DNA from: Branchipolynoe longqiensis
Taxonomy: Eukaryota > Annelida > Polychaeta > Phyllodocida > Polynoidae
Length of the DNA: 64,000 nt
Assembly (NCBI GenBank): GCA_030323885.1
Contig: CM059198.1
Location: 57,252,917 to 57,316,916, forward strand
Direction of reading: 5' to 3'
A model generated the notes under the pieces. That model worked only from the letters and a program-made list of their open reading frames with translations, made no database searches and was not told where the DNA came from. Each line of letters opens with the position of its first letter. Positions within the stretch are counted from its first letter, which is position 1. Shown in pieces: positions 5,868-57,985 of the stretch. The position numbers and the translations under genes were made by a program.

Positions 5868-6405
5868 GATGTTGAGTTTAATTCCCGGTTGAGTCAAACC
5901 AATGACTTACAAAATTGATACTTGTCACCACCTGGCCTGGCACTCGGCATTAGTAGGATAGGGCAAGTACTGGTTAGGTCTGAATCAGGATATTGTTACT
6001 GAGCGGAAAATCGGGGTACGGTACTGAAGGGACAGCACTGTTAAGTCACCATCAGTGTGAACTGTTACAAACCGGTACCTGTCCTGATATGCCCTTAATC
6101 GTTGGTAGGATCTCATCATCATCATCATGTTCTTGGTCACGATGCGACAAATACTGCTTTCATTACTTGACTGCCACTCTCCATTTAGCTCTCTGCTGTG
6201 AGAGTGATGTCAATGAGTGGTTCTTAATGTCTCTCAACTTCAGGTTTCTCTTGATGGTATCCTTGAACCGGAGACGAGGGCACCCTCTCTTTCTGTAACC
6301 AGAAGACAGTTGAGACTAGAGGATCTGCTTTGGTAGCCTGCCTGATGACATCCTCATGAGGTGTCCAGTCCACCGGTAGGATCTAAAATAACAATAAACA
6401 AACAA
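5868..6405 (+). repeat. T1 SINE, 5'-truncated, interrupted by LINE-B
   Basis: The body runs 5868-6113, beginning inside the B-box region (AATTCCCGGTTGAGTCAAACC). It resumes at 6375 with the tail AAAATAACAATAAACAAAC. The break is a LINE-B insertion with a 10-bp duplication of SINE sequence. Confidence 0.75.
6114..6374 (-). mobile_element. LINE-B 5'-truncated insertion with 10-bp TSD
   Basis: GGTAGGATCT occurs at 6104-6113 and again at 6375-6384, flanking the insertion. In minus orientation the insert ends in an ATG-rich tail (plus-strand CATCATCATCATCATG at 6114). It encodes the decayed C-terminus of a non-LTR polymerase (minus-strand RLRFKDTIKRNLKLRDIK). The pattern TSD + 5' truncation + simple tail is that of target-primed reverse transcription (family knowledge). 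Confidence 0.75.
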
Positions 6406-6424
6406 TCCCAGTCTGATGTATATA

Positions 6425-10858: not shown

Positions 10859-11196
10859 TTGTCTGTTTGTTTGTTGTTGTTTTACGTCCTAGCAACATCT
10901 AAGGTCATATCAGGACGGGTACCGACTTGTGACAGTGCGCACTCATGGCGACTTTATAGTGCTGTCCCACTGGGAAACCAAGCCGCCGGCACCATGACCT
11001 GGTATCCCACTCAGTCACATTATCCTGACACTGAGCACACCAGTCCTTGCCCTATCCTAATAATGCCGAGTGCCTGCCTAGGAAGCGGCAAGTATCAATT
11101 TTAAAGTCATTGGTTTGACTCGATCGGGACTCGAACCCACGAGCCCACGATCTACCAGCACGGGAGACGGACGCTCTAACTCATTCGGCCATCCCG
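10859..11196 (-). repeat. T1 SINE, full length, head type A
   Basis: Reversed tail GTTTGTTTGTTGTTGTTTT, complete body and head CTAACTCATTCGGCCATCCCG. It is one of the least diverged copies and useful for a consensus. Confidence 0.85.
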
Positions 11197-11527: not shown

Positions 11528-11705
11528 GTGATGAAAATGGGTAATATTGTTCCTAGAGCGGGACTCGAACCCACATCTCTTTGCATTCCGGGCCAGTGTG
11601 CTAAGCATTACACCACCTAGGCTCCCTGATATCAACACACTACCCACGCCTACCTGTCTATGCGGCTCCTTGCCTGACAGGTCAGTGCAGACCACTACAA
11701 TACCT
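11528..11705 (-). repeat. T2 SINE, reverse copy
   Basis: Same element as 425-612 in reverse: B box GGGACTCGAACCC and A box GCTAAGCATTACACCACC, then the shared non-tRNA part ending CTGACAGGTCAGTGCAG. Confidence 0.75.
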
Positions 11706-13913: not shown

Positions 13914-14578
13914 ATGGTACCAATAACCCTAACAATACCCCTAACAATATCCCTAGCAATAACCCTAACAATAACCCTGACCATAACCCTAGCAATACCC
14001 CTAACTATAACCATAGCAATGCCCCTAACAATAACCCTACCAATAACCCTGACAATAGCCCTGACAATAACTCTAGCAATAACCCTAGCAATAACCATAA
14101 CACTAAAGCTAACAATAACTTTAATGATTCCCGGAATGATAACACTAACAATAACCCTAACAATAACCCTGACAATAACCCTACCAATAACCCTAGCAAT
14201 ACCCCCAATAATACCCCCAATAATACCCCTCACAATAACCCTGACAAATACCCTAACAATAACCGTAAGTATAACCCTAACAATAACATTAACCATAACC
14301 GTAACAATAACCCTAACACTAACCCTACCACTAACCCTATTAATAACCTAAGAATTACCCTAAGAATTACCCTAACAATAACCCTAAACATAACCCTAAC
14401 AAAAACATTAACAATAACCCTAACAATAACCATAACAATAACCCTAATAATAACCCTTACACTAACCCTAACAATAACCCCAATAATACCCCTAACAATA
14501 ACCCGACCAATAGCCCTACCAATAACCCTAATAATAACCCTAATAATAGCCCTAACAATAACCATAGCAATAACCCTG
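13914..14578. repeat. Telomere-like 12-mer array, CCCTAACAATAA
   Basis: About 55 imperfect copies of a 12-base unit made of the telomere hexamer CCCTAA plus CAATAA. Because 12 is divisible by 3, open frames appear on both strands (TLTI- and VIVR-type repeats). These are artefacts of the repeat and not genes. Point changes are spread throughout, so the array is old. Confidence 0.9.
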
Positions 14579-23507: not shown

Positions 23508-23856
23508 GAGACATGATGGCTGAATGAGTTGAGTGTCGGGCTTCTGTTTTGGCAGATTGGGGTAGCCGAACACATGGGATCGTGGGTTCGAACACTGGTC
23601 GGGTCAAACCAATGACTTAAAAATGTATAATTGTCACTTTCTAGCTTGGCGCTCAGCATTATTAGGATAGGGCAAGGACTGGTGTGCTCAGTGTCAGGAT
23701 AATTGTGACTGAGTGGGATATCAGGTGCTGGTGGCCTGGTCTCCCAGTGGGACAGCACTATAAACTCGCCATGAGTGCGCACTGGCACAAGTCGGCATTC
23801 GTCCTGATATGACCTTAGCTGTAGATAGGACGTAAAACAACAACAAACACACAATA
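23508..23856 (+). repeat. T1 SINE, full length, head type A
   Basis: Head GACGAGACATGATGGCTG, B box GTGGGTTCGAAC, complete body and tail AAAACAACAACAAACACAC. Confidence 0.85.
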
Positions 23857-25805: not shown

Positions 25806-25905
25806 TATTACGGTTAGCACACTGGCCCGGATGCAAAGAGATGTGGATTCGAGTCCCGCTCTCAGCACAATATTTCCCATTTTCATCACCCCCACAACAA
25901 TACCA
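25806..25905 (+). repeat. T2 SINE 3' part
   Basis: GGTTAGCACACTGGCCCGG (A box) and GGATTCGAGTCCCGCTC (B box), then ATATTTCCCATTTTCATCACCCC, as in the 11.5 and 46.3 kb copies. It sits directly at the end of the 108-bp array. Confidence 0.65.
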
Positions 25906-46440: not shown

Positions 46441-46470
46441 TATGTTCAAATAATCCAAGTGATAATAAAT

Positions 46471-46637
46471 CATTCACATTACTCGGCCATGTGGCGGGAT
46501 AGCAAGACATAAGAGGAAACTGATTTAAAAGTTGTATTAAAGAAAAGTAATTGTCACCAACAGGTAGGCAGAGCAGGTTAGGGCAATTGGGCGGCTAGGA
46601 CCTGAATGTTCTGGCAATGGAGGCTGGAGCGTATGGA
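46471..46637 (-). repeat. B2 repeat of the YR element
   Basis: ATTCACATTACTCGGCCATG, then AAAGTTGTATTAAAGAAAAG, CAGGTAGGCAGAGCAGGTTA and TGTTCTGGCAATGGAGGC. It aligns with 46833-46973. This is the outer 3' end of the element on the minus strand. Confidence 0.8.
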
Positions 46638-46737
46638 TGCTGAGGCTGAGAGAGTCCAGATGATGGAGCACACAGGAGGGCATGTAGAGGTGGAAGGATC
46701 ATCACTCAGCCCCCAGTTAGAAGGTTGGTGTGTCGGG

Positions 46738-46832
46738 AAGCGAAGTATACAGGAGCGTGTGCTGTTAGAAGACAGAATAGACATAGGCTTGTATGCAAAT
46801 TACCCATGTTGACCTTGGGCCAACATGCACAA
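46738..46832 (-). repeat. A2 repeat of the YR element
   Basis: GCGAAGTATACAGGAGCGTG, GACATAGGCTTGTATGCAAA and TTACCCATGTTGACCTTGGG correspond to A1 at 52588-52720. A2 lies directly against B1, as expected for split direct repeats. Confidence 0.8.
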
Positions 46833-46973
46833 TTCACATTACTCGGCCATGATTTTAAAGTTTTATTAAAGAAAAGTAATCGTCACCTACAGGTAGGCAG
46901 AGCCAGTTATGGCAATTGGGCGGCTAGGACCCAAATGTTCTGGCAATGGAGGCGGGAGCGTATGGACATGTAC
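46833..46973 (-). repeat. B1 repeat of the YR element
   Basis: It aligns with B2 over about 140 bp: GGGCGGCTAGGACCCAAATG versus GGGCGGCTAGGACCTGAATG. It lies just after the recombinase stop region. Confidence 0.8.
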
Positions 46974-46984
46974 AAGTGGAAGGA

Positions 46985-47885
46985 TCAGCGCTCACCCAAG
47001 ATATGAGTGAACGCTGATGGAGATTCGGTGATCAGCATGGAGTCCATGTAGGTTGAGACAGCGCTGGACCTCCAGGTGCTGGTGGTCATGAGATTGGCCA
47101 GTGGGAGCCCAACAGCGTGGCAGGCTTGAGCAGCTCCCCTGTGAAGGATGTGGAGGCTGAGACATGTAGAGGCAGCGAGGCATAGAGCAGTGGTGAGGAA
47201 GCGGGCTGAGAGTGGTGCACCGGATGGAAGGAGGAGGGCATGGCAGTGTGGGGCAGGTTAGTCTTAGCAAGGTATCTGAACCAAGCCTTGAGAGGGGAGC
47301 ATGAAGAGTGAGTGATCGGGGGGAGGCAGAATACTAGAGGGCAGGCAGATTTTGGTTGAGTCTTGGTGGTATGGATATGGACAAGGAGTGCCTCAGGCTG
47401 TGACATCTGAGAAGAGAAGAGTTTGGGAGAATGACCGGGGGAAACAGTAACACAATTGCTTTGCCCGAAGCATAGTGCAATAGGCTAAGATGAGAGTGAG
47501 AACAATAACTGCAGGTAAGGGGGTCAGGCGGGTTAGGAATTAAGCGATCTGGGAGAGTTGGTCGGGGGTCAGGCCTGTGGCCTTTGTTGGGACATGGGAG
47601 GAGGACTTAATGATCACTTTCTTCATCACAGAAATCTTGTCCCTGTTAAAGAAACCCAGACCTTAACAGAAGAAAGATAATTGAACACAGTACCTGGCCA
47701 CCTATGAGCTAACGAAAGAAAACACAGGAAAGAGAGGAGGTCATAGACTCTAGCGGAGAGGGGGGAGACTGGGTGGAGGGTGCAGAACCACAAGTAGCGC
47801 CTCAAGTGGGAGGCTTTGTTGCGCCAAGTCCTATGGGTGAGTGCATTCTGGTAGACTTGGAGTAGGCCATCATGATGTTTCTACG
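46985..47885 (-). pseudogene. Tyrosine recombinase, decayed
   Basis: This enzyme class circularises or integrates the DNA copy by strand exchange through an active-site tyrosine. Minus strand: an N-terminal core-binding part with THRTWRNKASHLRRYLWFC (about 47785-47850), then LSSVKVW, and TPDQLSQIA. The C-terminal catalytic part reads HILHRGAAQACHAVG (about 47108-47152) and TSTWRSSAVSTYMDSM (about 47036-47085). The presumed catalytic Tyr codon is at 47048-47050. The HxxR box reads H-I-L-H-R, so the usual first Arg is replaced or shifted. Several frameshifts separate the pieces. A stop follows FTHILG near 46998. Confidence 0.75.
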
Positions 47886-48039
47886 AGTAGCCTGGAAGAT
47901 AAGGCAAACAGGTAATATATTCCAGGCTAGTGGGGTTTACATTGATAGTTTACATAGGAAAATCTATTATATCACTAGTCAAAGAGATTGGGATTCTAGT
48001 TAGAGACAAATTCAAGCACATAAGTGAGGCTTTGGGTTT

Positions 48040-48780
48040 AAAGAATGTATCAGATGTGGAGTGGCTTAGGGCATCTGCAAGTATTAACTGTGAACCAGGC
48101 TTATGGCATATCGCAAGTTCAATTTTATGTAAAGCAGAAAGAAGCCAGAGCTGCCTGACACAGGCACAGAAAACAGAGCCTTTGCCTCTGCCTGATGAGA
48201 GGACCTGCTGGGAAGCCAGGTTGTCTTTTTAATCTGTAATGTGTAGCTATGTGGGGAAGGGAGGAGGAGGACGGAATCTGCATGGACTAGATTGATCGGC
48301 TCGAGCTGAGTAATTGTGAGCTTCAGGTTGGCTAAGGGTGGATGGTATTTGGTTTAATTGAAATGTGTGCTGGAATAATTCCCCGTCTGCTGTCAATGTG
48401 GAATCAGACTCAATCTTCCAGGGGGATCTTGGCGTGGGGGGAATGAGTATGACCATATTGAAGGTAGCTATGAATTGTTCGAACCACTCTTAGTCCTTAA
48501 TGACATTGCGGTCGAACCAGTGTTGGCCACCAAAAGGAGTGGCTCTAACAGCTGCACGGACCCTGTTCGTGAACGTGGCTGCACATTTTATGCATTTCGA
48601 AAGCTGGTTCAGATTTCTCGTGAGATTCTGGAGCTGCTTCCTACTTGCTTTAGCCTTCTTCTTCCAGTCAGTACAAACCTGAAGAATGTCTTGCACTTTC
48701 TGAAATGGTAGAGATACTTTCTTTGTGTCTGTGACGATATTGAAGCCAAGCGATGTGAGATTAGTGGTAGGGGGAAGGCA
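48040..48780 (-). pseudogene. RNase H region of the YR retroelement
   Basis: Minus strand: KLQ-type stretch VQDILQVCTDWKKKAKAS with NQLSKCIKCAATFTNRV (thumb/connection part, about 48500-48690). Then IPPTPRSPWKIESDSTLTADG (about 48380-48445), which matches the start of the RNase H-like fold where D/S-A residues are expected. At the end comes HKPGSQLILADALSHS (about 48055-48105), the usual H-x-PG...ADALSR closing motif. One stop separates VIKD from EWFEQF. Confidence 0.75.
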
Positions 48781-49775
48781 TTTATCATGGGCAAGCTGGA
48801 GGCCTAGGGTTTTAGCTCATGAGAGAAAGTGGCTATAAGCATCAGCCGATTTTTGATATGTGCATTCTAGACGGAAAAAATCATTCAGATAACACAAGCT
48901 AAAATTACCTTGCTTATGCAGAAGCCAAACCAAGGACCTTCTGCTTGTGGCACATGTGAGTGCCGAGGGGCGACTGCTGAACTGGGGGGTATATATCGAC
49001 AATAACTGATTGTTAAGTGTAATGCCGAGAAGGGGGGATGAGAGGGGGCAGATTCTGAGCTGGCGATAAGCCCTGGCTAGATTGGCCGACCAGAGTCAAG
49101 CATTGGGGCCTAGAAAGGTAAGGCGGTCAGATAGTGTGGAGACAGTCAGAAGGGTAAAGTTAAACAAGTTGCCCTGGTAATAGCTTTTGATAATCCCGCA
49201 TTTACACTTCTCCTGGGAGAAAAGCACAAATCTAACATAACCCTCATTGTAGGGCTGACCTGCAACCAGGGATGGAAGGGAAGGCCGGAAATGGCCCTAA
49301 TATAGCACTGTGTTGACACTCACTCTTAATGTATGCTGTGATATGTGGGTCTGAATTTGCATCAGTTGTGTGATTAGTGAGTGTGGAGAGCGGGACCTTA
49401 ACTGAGGTATAGTCAATCGGCCACCCATATTCAAGATGATCTACTAATGTGTCGGGAAAGGCATGCCATGCTGTTATCAAGAAACATGAACGGATCAGAA
49501 GTTTCACTTGTAAGTAATTTTGCAGTTCTGAGGCTCCAACATGATTATAAATATTCAGATATGAGGGGAAGTCGGCCCACAGGGGGGCAGAGGCAATGGG
49601 CCAGAAGGTTGCTAGTGAGGCGCGATAAAGAAAAGGAGAGTGTCAAAGGGCATGGATGGAAGTTAGGGGGAAGTGCAAGGGCTGTTTGGACAGGCGTGTT
49701 GAACCAACCAAACATGAGATCAGGCAATGCCAGGTCAATGTCTGTTGAGTGTATTGTGTTTCAGTTGGTATGAAT
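48781..49775 (-). pseudogene. Reverse transcriptase of the YR retroelement
   Basis: It copies element RNA into DNA in active relatives. Minus strand: leader with YGWPIDYT and SAILGPFP (about 49280-49425), then LWSANLARAYRQLRICPLS (about 49050-49105), the palm motif with the first metal-binding Asp position replaced by Asn (ANLARAY where ADL is usual). Then comes the YxDD box, which reads YLND (codons at 48880-48891). Two catalytic-Asp positions are therefore altered. A stop after FLGPNA and shifts elsewhere confirm decay. Downstream RNase H is collinear. Confidence 0.75.
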
Positions 49776-49818
49776 TATGGAGAGTGAGGGTCTTGCAATC
49801 TGTGTGGTATGTGTGGGC

Positions 49819-49843
49819 GGGGGGGGGGGGGGGGGGGGGGGGG
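49819..49843 (+). repeat. Uninterrupted 25-G run
   Basis: Twenty-five consecutive G, flanked by C-interrupted G tracts (GGGCGG at 49815, CGGGCGACGGG at 49844). It lies between the RT part and the nested LINE. The length is likely to vary between individuals or assemblies. Confidence 0.85.
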
Positions 49844-49937
49844 CGGGCGACGGGTAGCGGGGGCGTGGGTTGCGGGAACCAGGTCATGGACAGGTGGCGC
49901 AGGGCCAGCTGGTTCCAGTAGTGTGGGATGTGGGGCT

Positions 49938-51215
49938 GGTGTTTTTTGTTGTTGTTTTTTTTGTTGAGGCTGTATTTATACTGTCCATAGCATATAAGCC
50001 CGGGTACCCAGGCTTGTTTTCAATGCTGGCCAGTTGTAGTGTTGGTGTTATCTTACCACACAGTGGCTGCTGATAAGGTATTTGTTTGCCTGCATTTCAG
50101 TAGCAGATAGATAATTGGTTAGTATGGTTAATAGCCTATGTTAGGTTTTTTTGGATTTTCTTGGTATATATGTATTTATTTTTTCTACTCTTATTACTAG
50201 ACTAGCCTACTCCTATTTACATATCATAGGCTTGTACGTAGTTGTGTGGTGTGTTATCTGGCTACTTTTGGCATGGTTACCTTCCATTGGGCGTCCCGCT
50301 GGTGGGCCGTGACATATCACATGCCCCTTTGGAGTGCAGCTTAGTGGGGGTTTCCTAGCCTTATTTTGCACAGATATTTTTTGTAAGTTTTTAGGTCAGG
50401 AATTTGTCGATCCTTTACTGTTTGGGCATTCCATACCGTGGCAGCCATTTCCAGCGTGCTTCTCTCATGAGCTTTTATTTGGCTTCTGGTCTGCTTTAGT
50501 AGTGGCGCATTATTTGCTCTAGTAGCCCTTTGTGGTTTTGTTAGAAGTTTAATGTTTTGACTATAGCTATATGCTAATGTTTTCAGATGAATTATTCTCC
50601 TATTTTCTAGTAGTTTCACTTTGGTTCTTTTGTGTATGTCATAGGTGGGGTGCAGCTTGTCTACTCTTAGACAGATTTTTAGGACTCTGTTCTGCAGTGT
50701 TTGCAGTTTTTTTAGTAGTTCTTTTCTCGCACCCATGTAGTTTACATCTCCATAGTCAAAATAGGGGAGCACCATGCCCTTGAAGATTTTTATTGACATT
50801 TCTTGTGTCATGTAGTCTCTTAGCTTTGCAAATAGCCACAGTTTGTGGTTTACTTTATGTATAATTTTATTTATACATAAGTTGTAGTTTAGTTGGCTGT
50901 CCAACTCAAGGCCTAGGTATTTGTAATGGTCTACATTTTCTAGTGTTTGGTTTCCTAACTTACAGTGTAATTTTCTTTCTGGCATTTGTTTATGCGAGAA
51001 GAGTACTGTTTTTGATTTGCTTGTGTTGATGGTTATTTTGTTGGAGTCAGACCACTCATCTAGTTTTAGTAGGAGTTTATTTAGTTTAGTTATTACCTCC
51101 TCTTCTGTGGTGCCATTTGCGTATATGACTGTTTCATCTGCGTATAGTTGGAGGCATTCAGTTTGCAGCCATTTTTCAAGATCGTTTATATAGATTATAA
51201 AGAGTAGTGGGAGGG
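49938..51215 (-). mobile_element. Nested 5'-truncated LINE insertion
   Basis: It contains the 3' part of a non-LTR polymerase (51210-50341) and about 400 bp of 3' untranslated DNA, ending on the minus strand at an AC/A-rich CAACAACAAAAAACACC. It interrupts the YR element between gag and RT. I could not find a clean target-site duplication. Confidence 0.65.
50341..51215 (-). pseudogene. Non-LTR reverse transcriptase, palm end to C-terminus
   Basis: About 290 codons are open without a stop, by far the least decayed protein in the window. PLLFIIYINDLEKW is the motif leading to the palm. LQLYADETVIYANG is the catalytic box with the second Asp replaced by Glu (YADE for YADD). Thumb motif HYKYLGLELD follows, then RVLKICLRVDK, and the C-terminal VWNAQTVKDRQIP...FK-type end. 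The first in-frame Met lies in unrelated low-complexity sequence, so the start is an artefact. The fingers, first palm motif and endonuclease are missing. It belongs to the CR1/Jockey/RTE assemblage; finer placement needs a tree. Confidence 0.85.
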
Positions 51216-51370
51216 GGGAAGGGTTGGGGTGTGTGTGGTAATGGGGTAATGGTAAACAATCCGGCAATTGACTTATTGGTGCCGGGGGAGGGGCTGAATC
51301 AGCTCATGGTTTCTTCTCGCGAAACTGTCGTTTATTCTGGCAATCTTCCTCTTTGTGATTTAGAGCCCTC

Positions 51371-52540
51371 CTAGTCATATATACGCATCATGCGCATATA
51401 TGCAGCTGTCTGTTGAGAAGAGTTTGTGTCAGGTGCCAAACCCGCAATCCCTCCCCCAATTCCAGTTATAGCAGGCCTTGCCTTCAGTGTCCTTACTATA
51501 GTCATCACTGGGATTGAGAGTGGCTTGAGGCTAGGTGGGGGGGGGGGGTGAAACTGAAGCTGTGGGTCAAAGGCTGGGCAGACTTGGAATGGTCTACCAT
51601 CGCGCTTAATGTCTTTAATTTGGGCAGCATTGAGCCAGCTGTCACTCAGATGACCGTCAGCTACCATCTGGAAGATGCACTCTGACCACCTCCTACATGA
51701 CACCCAATCCCATGTAATAGCCATACATTACAGGACCTGCTCGTGCTGGAGAACAGCTGGCCACTAGGTGTCAGGGAATGTGGGGTGGGAGGTGAGCTCT
51801 CTAAATATTCAGACCATGTTGCCTTGCCCATGCCAATTTTCTTGCAGCTGACCCCTCTATTAAGGAATAAGTCAGGGAGGAGTTCCATACCTTTTGTCCT
51901 CGGAAGGAGCTGGTCACTGTCCAGGAGGTCGAGTCTAGGTGGTGGCAGTCAATCTGGTCTAGGCTCTGGGCGTGGCTGGGTGGTGGGGTAGTGGGGAAGG
52001 GGGGGGGGGGGAGTCGGGAGGCTTGGTGGTGCCAGTGCTCAGTGGCAATGGTGTGGCAATTGTGGAGGGGAGTGCAACAGGGCTCAAGGGTATGTTGGCA
52101 TCATGGTAGAGGGGGGGAAGTTTTGGGTATTGAGAAGAGAGGGGGGTGAGTCTGGGGCAGGAAGCGGGGTGGCGCCGGGACCTAGAGCGGGCTGGCGGAT
52201 TGAACATATAGGGGAAAAGAGACCCTGCTTGCCTGGTACGCCTAGGTGTTGGGGACAGTGAGGCACTGTTGCGGGCTGCCAGGCGAGCAGCATTGGAGAG
52301 GCACCTATTTTTGTGGGTGAGGCGGCAAATTATGTCCCTGTCCGACTCTGTGTGTGAATACGGGGAGTCCATGGGTCCTGGAAGTGCTGGCTGTGGCAAT
52401 GTTGAGTCACTTGAGTCAGGCGAGTTCTGGTTTAGAAACTGGTCGCAGGAAGGTTCGGCTTGTCTGGGCGGTTGCCGGTGGGAGGCTCCCAGAGACAAAG
52501 GCAAGCTGCCTCATCTTTTGCATGTTGGCGGCATTCTCAC
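51371..52540 (-). pseudogene. Gag-like region of the YR retroelement
   Basis: Minus strand from about 52536: MPPTCKR, stop, then a long open stretch (52504-51959) rich in Pro/Ser/Arg with RDIICRLTHKNRCLSNAARL and PPARSRSRRHP. A second stretch (51724-51371) has WSECIFQMVADGHLSDSWL and QIKDIKRDGRPFQ. The position right after A1 and before RT is where gag lies in YR retrotransposons. The protein itself shows no universal motif, so the call is by position and composition. Confidence 0.5.
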
Positions 52541-52587
52541 CTATGTAGCACAGAAGTGGTAATCTGGTACGTTGCTATCCTAGTAGG

Positions 52588-52720
52588 GCAAGCGAAGTGT
52601 ACAGTAGTGTGTGCTGTTTGAAAGTGAGGAGTAGCAGTGCAGAGGTAAGCAAGGAATACAGAAATCGACATAGCCTTTTATGCAAATTACCCATGTTGAC
52701 CTCGGGCCAACATGGGTAAT
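52588..52720 (-). repeat. A1 repeat of the YR element, ending in an inverted repeat
   Basis: GCGAAGTGTACAGTAGTGTG and TTATGCAAATTACCCATGTTG match A2. The outer end carries a perfect 12-bp inverted repeat, TTACCCATGTTG (52687-52698) and CAACATGGGTAA (52708-52719), around ACCTCGGGC. Confidence 0.8.
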
Positions 52721-57627: not shown

Positions 57628-57985
57628 GCAGACGGCATGGCTGAATGAGTTGAGCGTCCGTCTCCTGTTTTGGGAGATCAGGGGATCCAAGCCCATGGGA
57701 TTGTGGGTTCAAACCCTGGTCGAATCAGACCAATGTCTTTAAAAATTGATTCTTGGTGGTTTCTAACCAGGCGCTCGACATTATTAGGATAGGGCAAGGA
57801 CTGGTTGGCTCAGTGTCAGGATAATGTGAGTCAGTGGGATATCAGGTCATGGTGCTGGGTGCCTGGTCTCCCAGAGGGGCAGCACTATACGGTTGCCATG
57901 AGTGCGCACTGTCACAAGTCCGCACCCACCCTGATATGACCTTAAATGTTGTATGGACGTAAAGCACTAACAAACAAACAAATCC
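57628..57985 (+). repeat. T1 SINE, full length, head type A
   Basis: Head AGACGGCATGGCTGAATGAG, B box GTGGGTTCAAACC, body, tail CTAACAAACAAACAAATCC. Confidence 0.85.

Follow-up and report, generated by a model that had tools for sequence, protein, structure and literature searches.

Structure of the element at the locus

The window analysed here is a stretch of 64,000 nucleotides from the polychaete Branchipolynoe longqiensis (assembly GCA_030323885.1, contig CM059198.1, positions 57,252,917 to 57,316,916 of the forward strand), with a mean GC content of ~43%, which differs from the 35% reported for the Mercenaria genome; one window is no guide to the host. Its minus strand carries the remains of a tyrosine recombinase (YR) retrotransposon bounded by split direct repeats. 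Read on that strand, the element begins with the left repeat A1 (52720-52587), whose first bases are ATTA (52720-52717), and continues with a coding part, an internal B copy (B1, 47003-46833) which overlaps the end of the recombinase, an internal A copy (A2, 46832-46735) and the right repeat B2 (46719-46473). B1 and A2 meet at GTGA-ATTG-TGCATG, and comparison of ends places a right-hand integration core, ATGA in this copy, at 46470-46473. A preliminary description of this DNA had proposed the order A1, coding part, B1, A2, B2 with two unrelated repeat pairs, and this is borne out. In local alignments, each compared with 500 dinucleotide shuffles, B1 and B2 have 107 of 117 bases identical (score 184, shuffle maximum 29), and A1 and A2 have 55 of 60 aligned bases identical with one gap (score 90, shuffle maximum 28). 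The A and B pairs are unrelated because the cross-pairs A2/B2 and A1/B1 score at background (15). Gapped alignment sets the limits at 46833-47003 for B1, 46473-46719 for B2, 52587-52714 for A1 (edge at 52720) and 46735-46827 for A2 (edge at 46832). B2 includes ~74 bp that are missing from B1, in pieces of 31 bp and 43 bp, and ~34 bp of A1 are missing from A2. B1 and B2 differ by 8.5% in their best 117 bp, and their Kimura two-parameter distance is ~0.15 over 133 sites. No second copy of the element was found in the window, where matches outside the element are limited to 32 to 59 bp (at 25871, 38499 and 38794).

The coding part, also on the minus strand, was delimited by tblastn with three relatives found elsewhere in the genome (L021, L022 and L023, described below). 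A Gag remnant, located with L021 and L022, occupies 51310-51894 in several frames and includes a Cys/His-rich part; its N-terminal part probably extends up to ~52510. The name Gag is our own reading of the relatives, and has no Pfam match. The remnant of reverse transcriptase (RT) and RNase H (47956-49736) is spread over three frames, and that of the tyrosine recombinase (46997-47919) lies in shifted frames; both were also followed by gapped alignment. The tblastn matches are colinear with the window and leave 36 bp between the end of RNase H (47956) and the start of the recombinase (47919). A read through RT, RNase H and recombinase of the window has four homologues, the best being P0001 (48% identity, E 2.7e-140). 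The motifs YLND and ADALSHS and the recombinase end TSTWRSSAVSTYMDSM, on which the preliminary description relied, are present: the RT active site reads YLNDF (YLDDF in the intact relatives), and ILADALSHS and TSTWRSSAVSTYMDSM have as counterparts LADALSR and the consensus AGTWxSxAVxxYL. The HxxR position of the recombinase reads HILH, and the reading frames are disrupted, with 5 stops within the 414 codons of 49197-47956 and frame changes besides, so that the copy is dead, as had been supposed.

The coding part is interrupted by a fragment of a long interspersed nuclear element (LINE) of ~1.27 kb, at approximately 49936-51205 on the minus strand, which contains an RT, an A-rich 3' end and a short imperfect target duplication. 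It is foreign to the element, and two other copies (L009 and L010) have no insert at the same point. When nine pieces of the window were scanned with Pfam, only 50341-51303 scored above the cut-off (RVT_1, 3.5e-10), and this piece is part of the LINE. The nested LINE, the greater length of B and the absence of a methyltransferase had been missed in the preliminary description. This last point bears on the class of the element, which had been placed on the PAT/Ngaro side of YR retrotransposons. The assignment to YR retrotransposons with split direct repeats stands, and it is narrowed to Ngaro as against PAT, because the gap between RNase H and recombinase is too short for a methyltransferase. 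We read the locus, with a probability of roughly 0.87, as a dead Ngaro-type retrotransposon of the form A1 - Gag-RT-RNase H - recombinase - B1-A2-B2, presumably inserted by integration of a circle at ATTA(T).

Relatives and copies in the genome

The window lies in an assembly of 1.85 Gb. The earlier suggestion that active relatives may exist elsewhere is supported as far as apparent intactness goes: the genome contains three relatives which, judged by their frames, appear intact. Gag, RT and RNase H share a single frame of 1226, 1262 and 1142 aa in L021, L022 and L023 respectively, followed by a recombinase of 354, 325 and 338 aa (lengths counted from stop to stop). A1 and A2 are identical in L021 (128/128) and 99.2% identical in L023, and the corresponding values for B1 and B2 are 97.7% and 99.7%. 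In the published model both repeat pairs are near-identical when an element inserts (PMC6681497); from this model and the measured identities, L021 and L023 would be young and the window copy old. In the RT tree the window, L021-L023 and P0001 group with support 1.0, and the placement of the window nearer to L021-L023 than to P0001 has a support of only 0.196. DIRS and L020b (a second lineage, see below) were the sole outgroups of the RT trees, which therefore do not place L020b.

The recombinase was examined on an alignment of 25 sequences. Its predicted structure (pLDDT 91.8) resembles that of Cre (3crx; Foldseek E 1.8e-11, TM ~0.7), and its profile matches Cre at 1.1e-11. It has in common with Cre the fold and the pattern R..K..HxxR..W..Y, in which the residues presumably play their usual roles. 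It differs in sequence, with 16-20% identity among the listed Cre chains, and in that its gene belongs to a retrotransposon in a large genome that is not bacterial. In Pfam, Phage_integrase stays below the cut-off for the recombinases of L021, L022 and L023, and L021 has two unrelated weak matches. A search of PDB sequences gave nothing useful with the broken window read (best E 0.99) and no match at 0.01 with P0001, profile searches being more productive; an RT-RNase H alignment of P0001-P0004 run against viral contigs gave 30 pattern matches, none of them confirmed as a relative. The predicted RT-RNase H fold of P0002 matches solved RTs with a best E of 5.4e-18. RT fold and profile resemble those of caulimovirus and Ty3, as they would if the locus were a Gypsy-like element with long terminal repeats (LTRs) whose other repeats had arisen by chance. 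The probability of this explanation is practically negligible, given repeats far above their shuffles which recur in other copies, and a Cre-fold recombinase after RNase H; we rejected a Gypsy-like identity on the recombinase and the split repeats.

Copies were located with two probes. A B1-A2 probe gave matches at 45 places, with 40 of its 603 candidates scored, and an A1 probe at 40 places, with 40 of 276 scored. Twelve loci were fetched around these matches for repeat comparison. All four repeats are present in L009, L011 and L015, and B1-A2-B2 in L012 and L014; L010 has A1, B1, A2 and a partial second A match, and the remaining loci are partial. None of the 12 contains an intact Gag-RT-RNase H frame of the window subfamily, the longest frame per locus being 162 to 452 aa; a frame of 761 aa in L020 belongs to another lineage. 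With P0001 as query, 70 matches were obtained when 39 of the 201232 candidates of the first look were scored, and 22 of the 39 RT-RNase H matches are listed without internal stops. The genome also contains solo A-B units, with A and B within ~360 bp, at C18:31416910-31417258, C15:42540161-42540505, C1:9490209-9490551 and seven more places. They are comparable to solo LTRs, and isolated A-B repeats scattered through the genome have likewise been reported for Ngaro-like elements of Cafeteria (PMC8547959). Two further remnants were noticed in the fetched loci: L012:3020-4319 (plus strand) is a second RT-RNase H-YR remnant of the window clade, lying beside the first in the opposite direction, and L015:3733-4483 holds part of a recombinase from a further lineage, with 27-33% identity to the window clade.

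Candidate integration core and empty sites

The many solo A-B units and full copies of the family make it possible to compare ends, internal junctions and empty sites base by base. Outer A ends carry ATTA in 21 of 25 cases (6/7 in a first set and 15/18 in a second), and of the 32 right ends that could be read, 29 have ATTA after B2 (9/11 and 20/21, the window with its ATGA being one of the 32). One subset of 20 B2 ends has 19 ATTA and 1 ATTC, L065 having no readable end; the solo A-B unit L013 has ATAA at its outer A end and has lost its B2 end. Of 7 internal B1|A2 junctions, 6 contain one ATTA (the B1 end of L009 is lost). For comparison, the background frequency of ATTA in the window is 0.0058 per base. 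Fourteen insertions were tried for both ends; of the 13 in which both could be read, 10 are flanked by ATTA left and right. For L021 and L023 the bases common to both ends are TT or ATT, and here too an A comes next on the right-hand side. The solo A-B unit at C1:9490209-9490551 (flanks L054 and L035) sits in a common dispersed repeat, of which 26 of 31 empty copies among the sequences compared read a single ATTAT at the insertion point. These empty copies span the insertion point at E 1e-10 or better, with identities of 68-81%, and most rows are ungapped beside the junction.

These junctions suggest the following sequence of events, in which the DNA circle, the steps of reverse transcription and the action of the enzyme are deduced from the published model. 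The RNA would be reverse transcribed by way of the split repeats into a DNA circle with a B|A junction, as copied in B1-A2. The recombinase, with its predicted Cre fold, would exchange strands between the circle junction, which reads GTGA-ATTAT-GCATG in the majority of copies, and an ATTA(T) of the genome, an exchange that would leave ATTA at both ends of the element. The window copy later decayed and received the LINE insertion. For DIRS1-like elements, termini of NTT, mostly ATT, are described in 23 of 28 annotated elements, with a 3-bp junction that recombines with an identical genomic sequence (PMC3266345). Our junction data carry this picture over to the present Ngaro-type family. The titles and abstract openings of the open-access literature searched contain no ATTA core for Ngaro elements, and the usual presence of ATTA at the outer ends and the internal junction is a new detail of this analysis. 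With so many ends, junctions and empty sites to compare, the circle-junction model can be put to the test in Ngaro-type elements, ATTA(T) being the candidate shared core.

Several points weigh against this account. L022 yielded neither an A pair nor a B pair, and its direct repeats (28 to 62 bp; 48 and 59 nt) were read as tandem or dispersed repeats. L052, L056 and L060, which make up 3 of the 13 insertions with readable ends, have no ATTA on at least one side, and the window itself has ATGA at its right core and ATTG at its internal core. The empty site belongs to a solo A-B unit of the same family rather than to the window copy; the empty sequences compared are paralogous repeats, not orthologous sites. 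At a second solo A-B unit (L055, L033) ATTAT is read in 3 of 7 empty copies and a sequence with one base different in 4 of 7. Similar stretches of ~20 bp flank the L021 insertion (L021:805-830 and 6390-6415), either as an older tandem repeat or as a target duplication. Neither a circle nor activity was seen. Finally, the class is assigned on published definitions.

An inverted repeat around CATGTTGGCC-CGA-GGTCAACATG was observed at the start of A (52686-52720 in the window, and also in other copies), which could be a recombinase site or a hairpin. For 11 of 14 A copies, no more than 22 of 300 base shuffles gave an inverted repeat as good as the best one observed; for the other three (L010 A2, L011 A1 and L015 A1) at least 197 of 300 did so. 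It is possible that this palindrome forms a recombinase-binding pair.

Class of the element and other features

Under published definitions (PMC4157794, PMC8547959, PMC3783388, PMC9210276) the element is Ngaro-like and not PAT-like. The order A1-ORFs-B1-A2-B2, with ORFs standing for open reading frames, is found in the window, L009, L011, L015, L021 and L023; the internal repeats lie downstream of YR, YR and RT have the same direction, and RT and RNase H are followed by the recombinase with no methyltransferase domain. In L021-L023, as in the window, there is no room for a methyltransferase between RNase H and recombinase. A Pfam scan of the Gag-RT-RNase H proteins of L021 and L022 (that of L023 lay outside the scan) gave RVT_1 only and no methyltransferase, and all 120 listed of 335 RT homologues, which carry no element names, have PF00078 as their only precomputed domain. 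Amphibian Ngaro elements include an ORF for an SGNH hydrolase (PMC9210276), for which no room exists here between YR and B1, the YR of L021 ending inside B1. The VIPER-like group is described as restricted to kinetoplastids (PMC9210276).

DIRS1-like elements share the RT-RNase H-YR logic. DIRS1-like membership was rejected, as the element is without long inverted repeats and without methyltransferase: in the window a single inverted pair, of 41 nt at 76% and derived from the palindrome inside A, connects A1 with the 3' end, and L021 and L023 have none. Elements of that kind do occur in this genome. A search with Dam, in which 150 of 4515 candidates were scored, gave 57 matches (best 36 bits, cut-off 28.1). 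The two loci inspected among them, L044 and L045, have Dam matches just over the cut-off (28.8 and 29.1 bits) contained within RT-RNase H frames of 713 and 700 aa, together with 91-nt inverted arms at 99%, and are DIRS1-like elements. The RTs of L021 and L022 are ~22-23% identical to theirs, and YR similarity between the window clade and these two loci is not significant by BLAST and weak by profile (20 bits for L045).

PAT-like elements have split direct repeats in common with the present element, and they encode a methyltransferase (PMC4157794), of which none was found here; PAT membership was rejected on that ground. A PAT-like lineage that lost its methyltransferase secondarily would take on the look of Ngaro, and such a loss has been proposed for a lineage of C. 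briggsae (PMC4157794). We consider this origin highly improbable, given that the domain is absent well beyond the window, in the listed homologues and in L021-L023, and that similarity to the DIRS1-like L044 and L045 is low in RT and not significant in YR.

A second methyltransferase-less YR retrotransposon, L020b (L020:362-4610, minus strand, with L046), is intact-looking, with Gag, RT-RNase H and YR of 361, 761 and 362 aa. Its A1 and A2 are identical over 206 bp, its B1 and B2 92% identical over 116 bp, and its ends sit in TATATA repeats instead of at ATTA. Against the profile of the window clade its YR reaches 113 bits, and its RT is 18% identical to that of the window and ~24.5% to that of L021 or L022. 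Two lineages with split repeats, no methyltransferase and RTs so far apart could mean that the window element belongs to a further methyltransferase-less group, one that is not the sister of fish and sea urchin Ngaro elements. The same can be said of Gag, by our own reading, which is in one frame with RT-RNase H in L021-L023 and P0001, whereas published Ngaro have Gag, RT/RNase H and YR as separate ORFs (PMC8547959, PMC9210276). We hold this to be unlikely, since the element agrees with Ngaro in repeat architecture and gene order and several Ngaro lineages are already in the literature (PMC4157794). Slightly less doubtful, though still improbable, is a wider proposal: the window lineage would be a separate, still expanding branch of YR retrotransposons without methyltransferase, with a fused Gag-RT-RNase H and an ATTA(T)-specific Cre-like recombinase, living beside L020b and the DIRS1-like elements. 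If so, split repeats without methyltransferase arose, or survived, more than once. YR retrotransposons in general have been described as relatively rare and poorly understood (PMC4157794).

As a Ngaro-type element, the window copy is an ordinary additional member, with a well preserved outline, of elements already published in molluscs, and the traces of integration among its relatives are unusually clear. The earlier view of an under-described lineage therefore holds in part: Ngaro counts of 53 in Lottia and of 1741 and 1801 in two assemblies of Mercenaria have been given, and Ngaro are reported across bivalves (PMC4157794, PMC8905726, PMC10294476).

Other features were noted in the window. 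A dispersed repeat of ~330 bp, SINE-like (short interspersed nuclear element) by size and number, occurs on both strands at many places, e.g. 10864-11196, 23515-23853 and 57629-57980. An array of 54.8 copies of CAATAACCCTAA, a unit of which one half is similar to the telomere repeat, occupies 13921-14577, and two tRNA-like matches above the Rfam threshold lie at 497-569 and 11550-11622.

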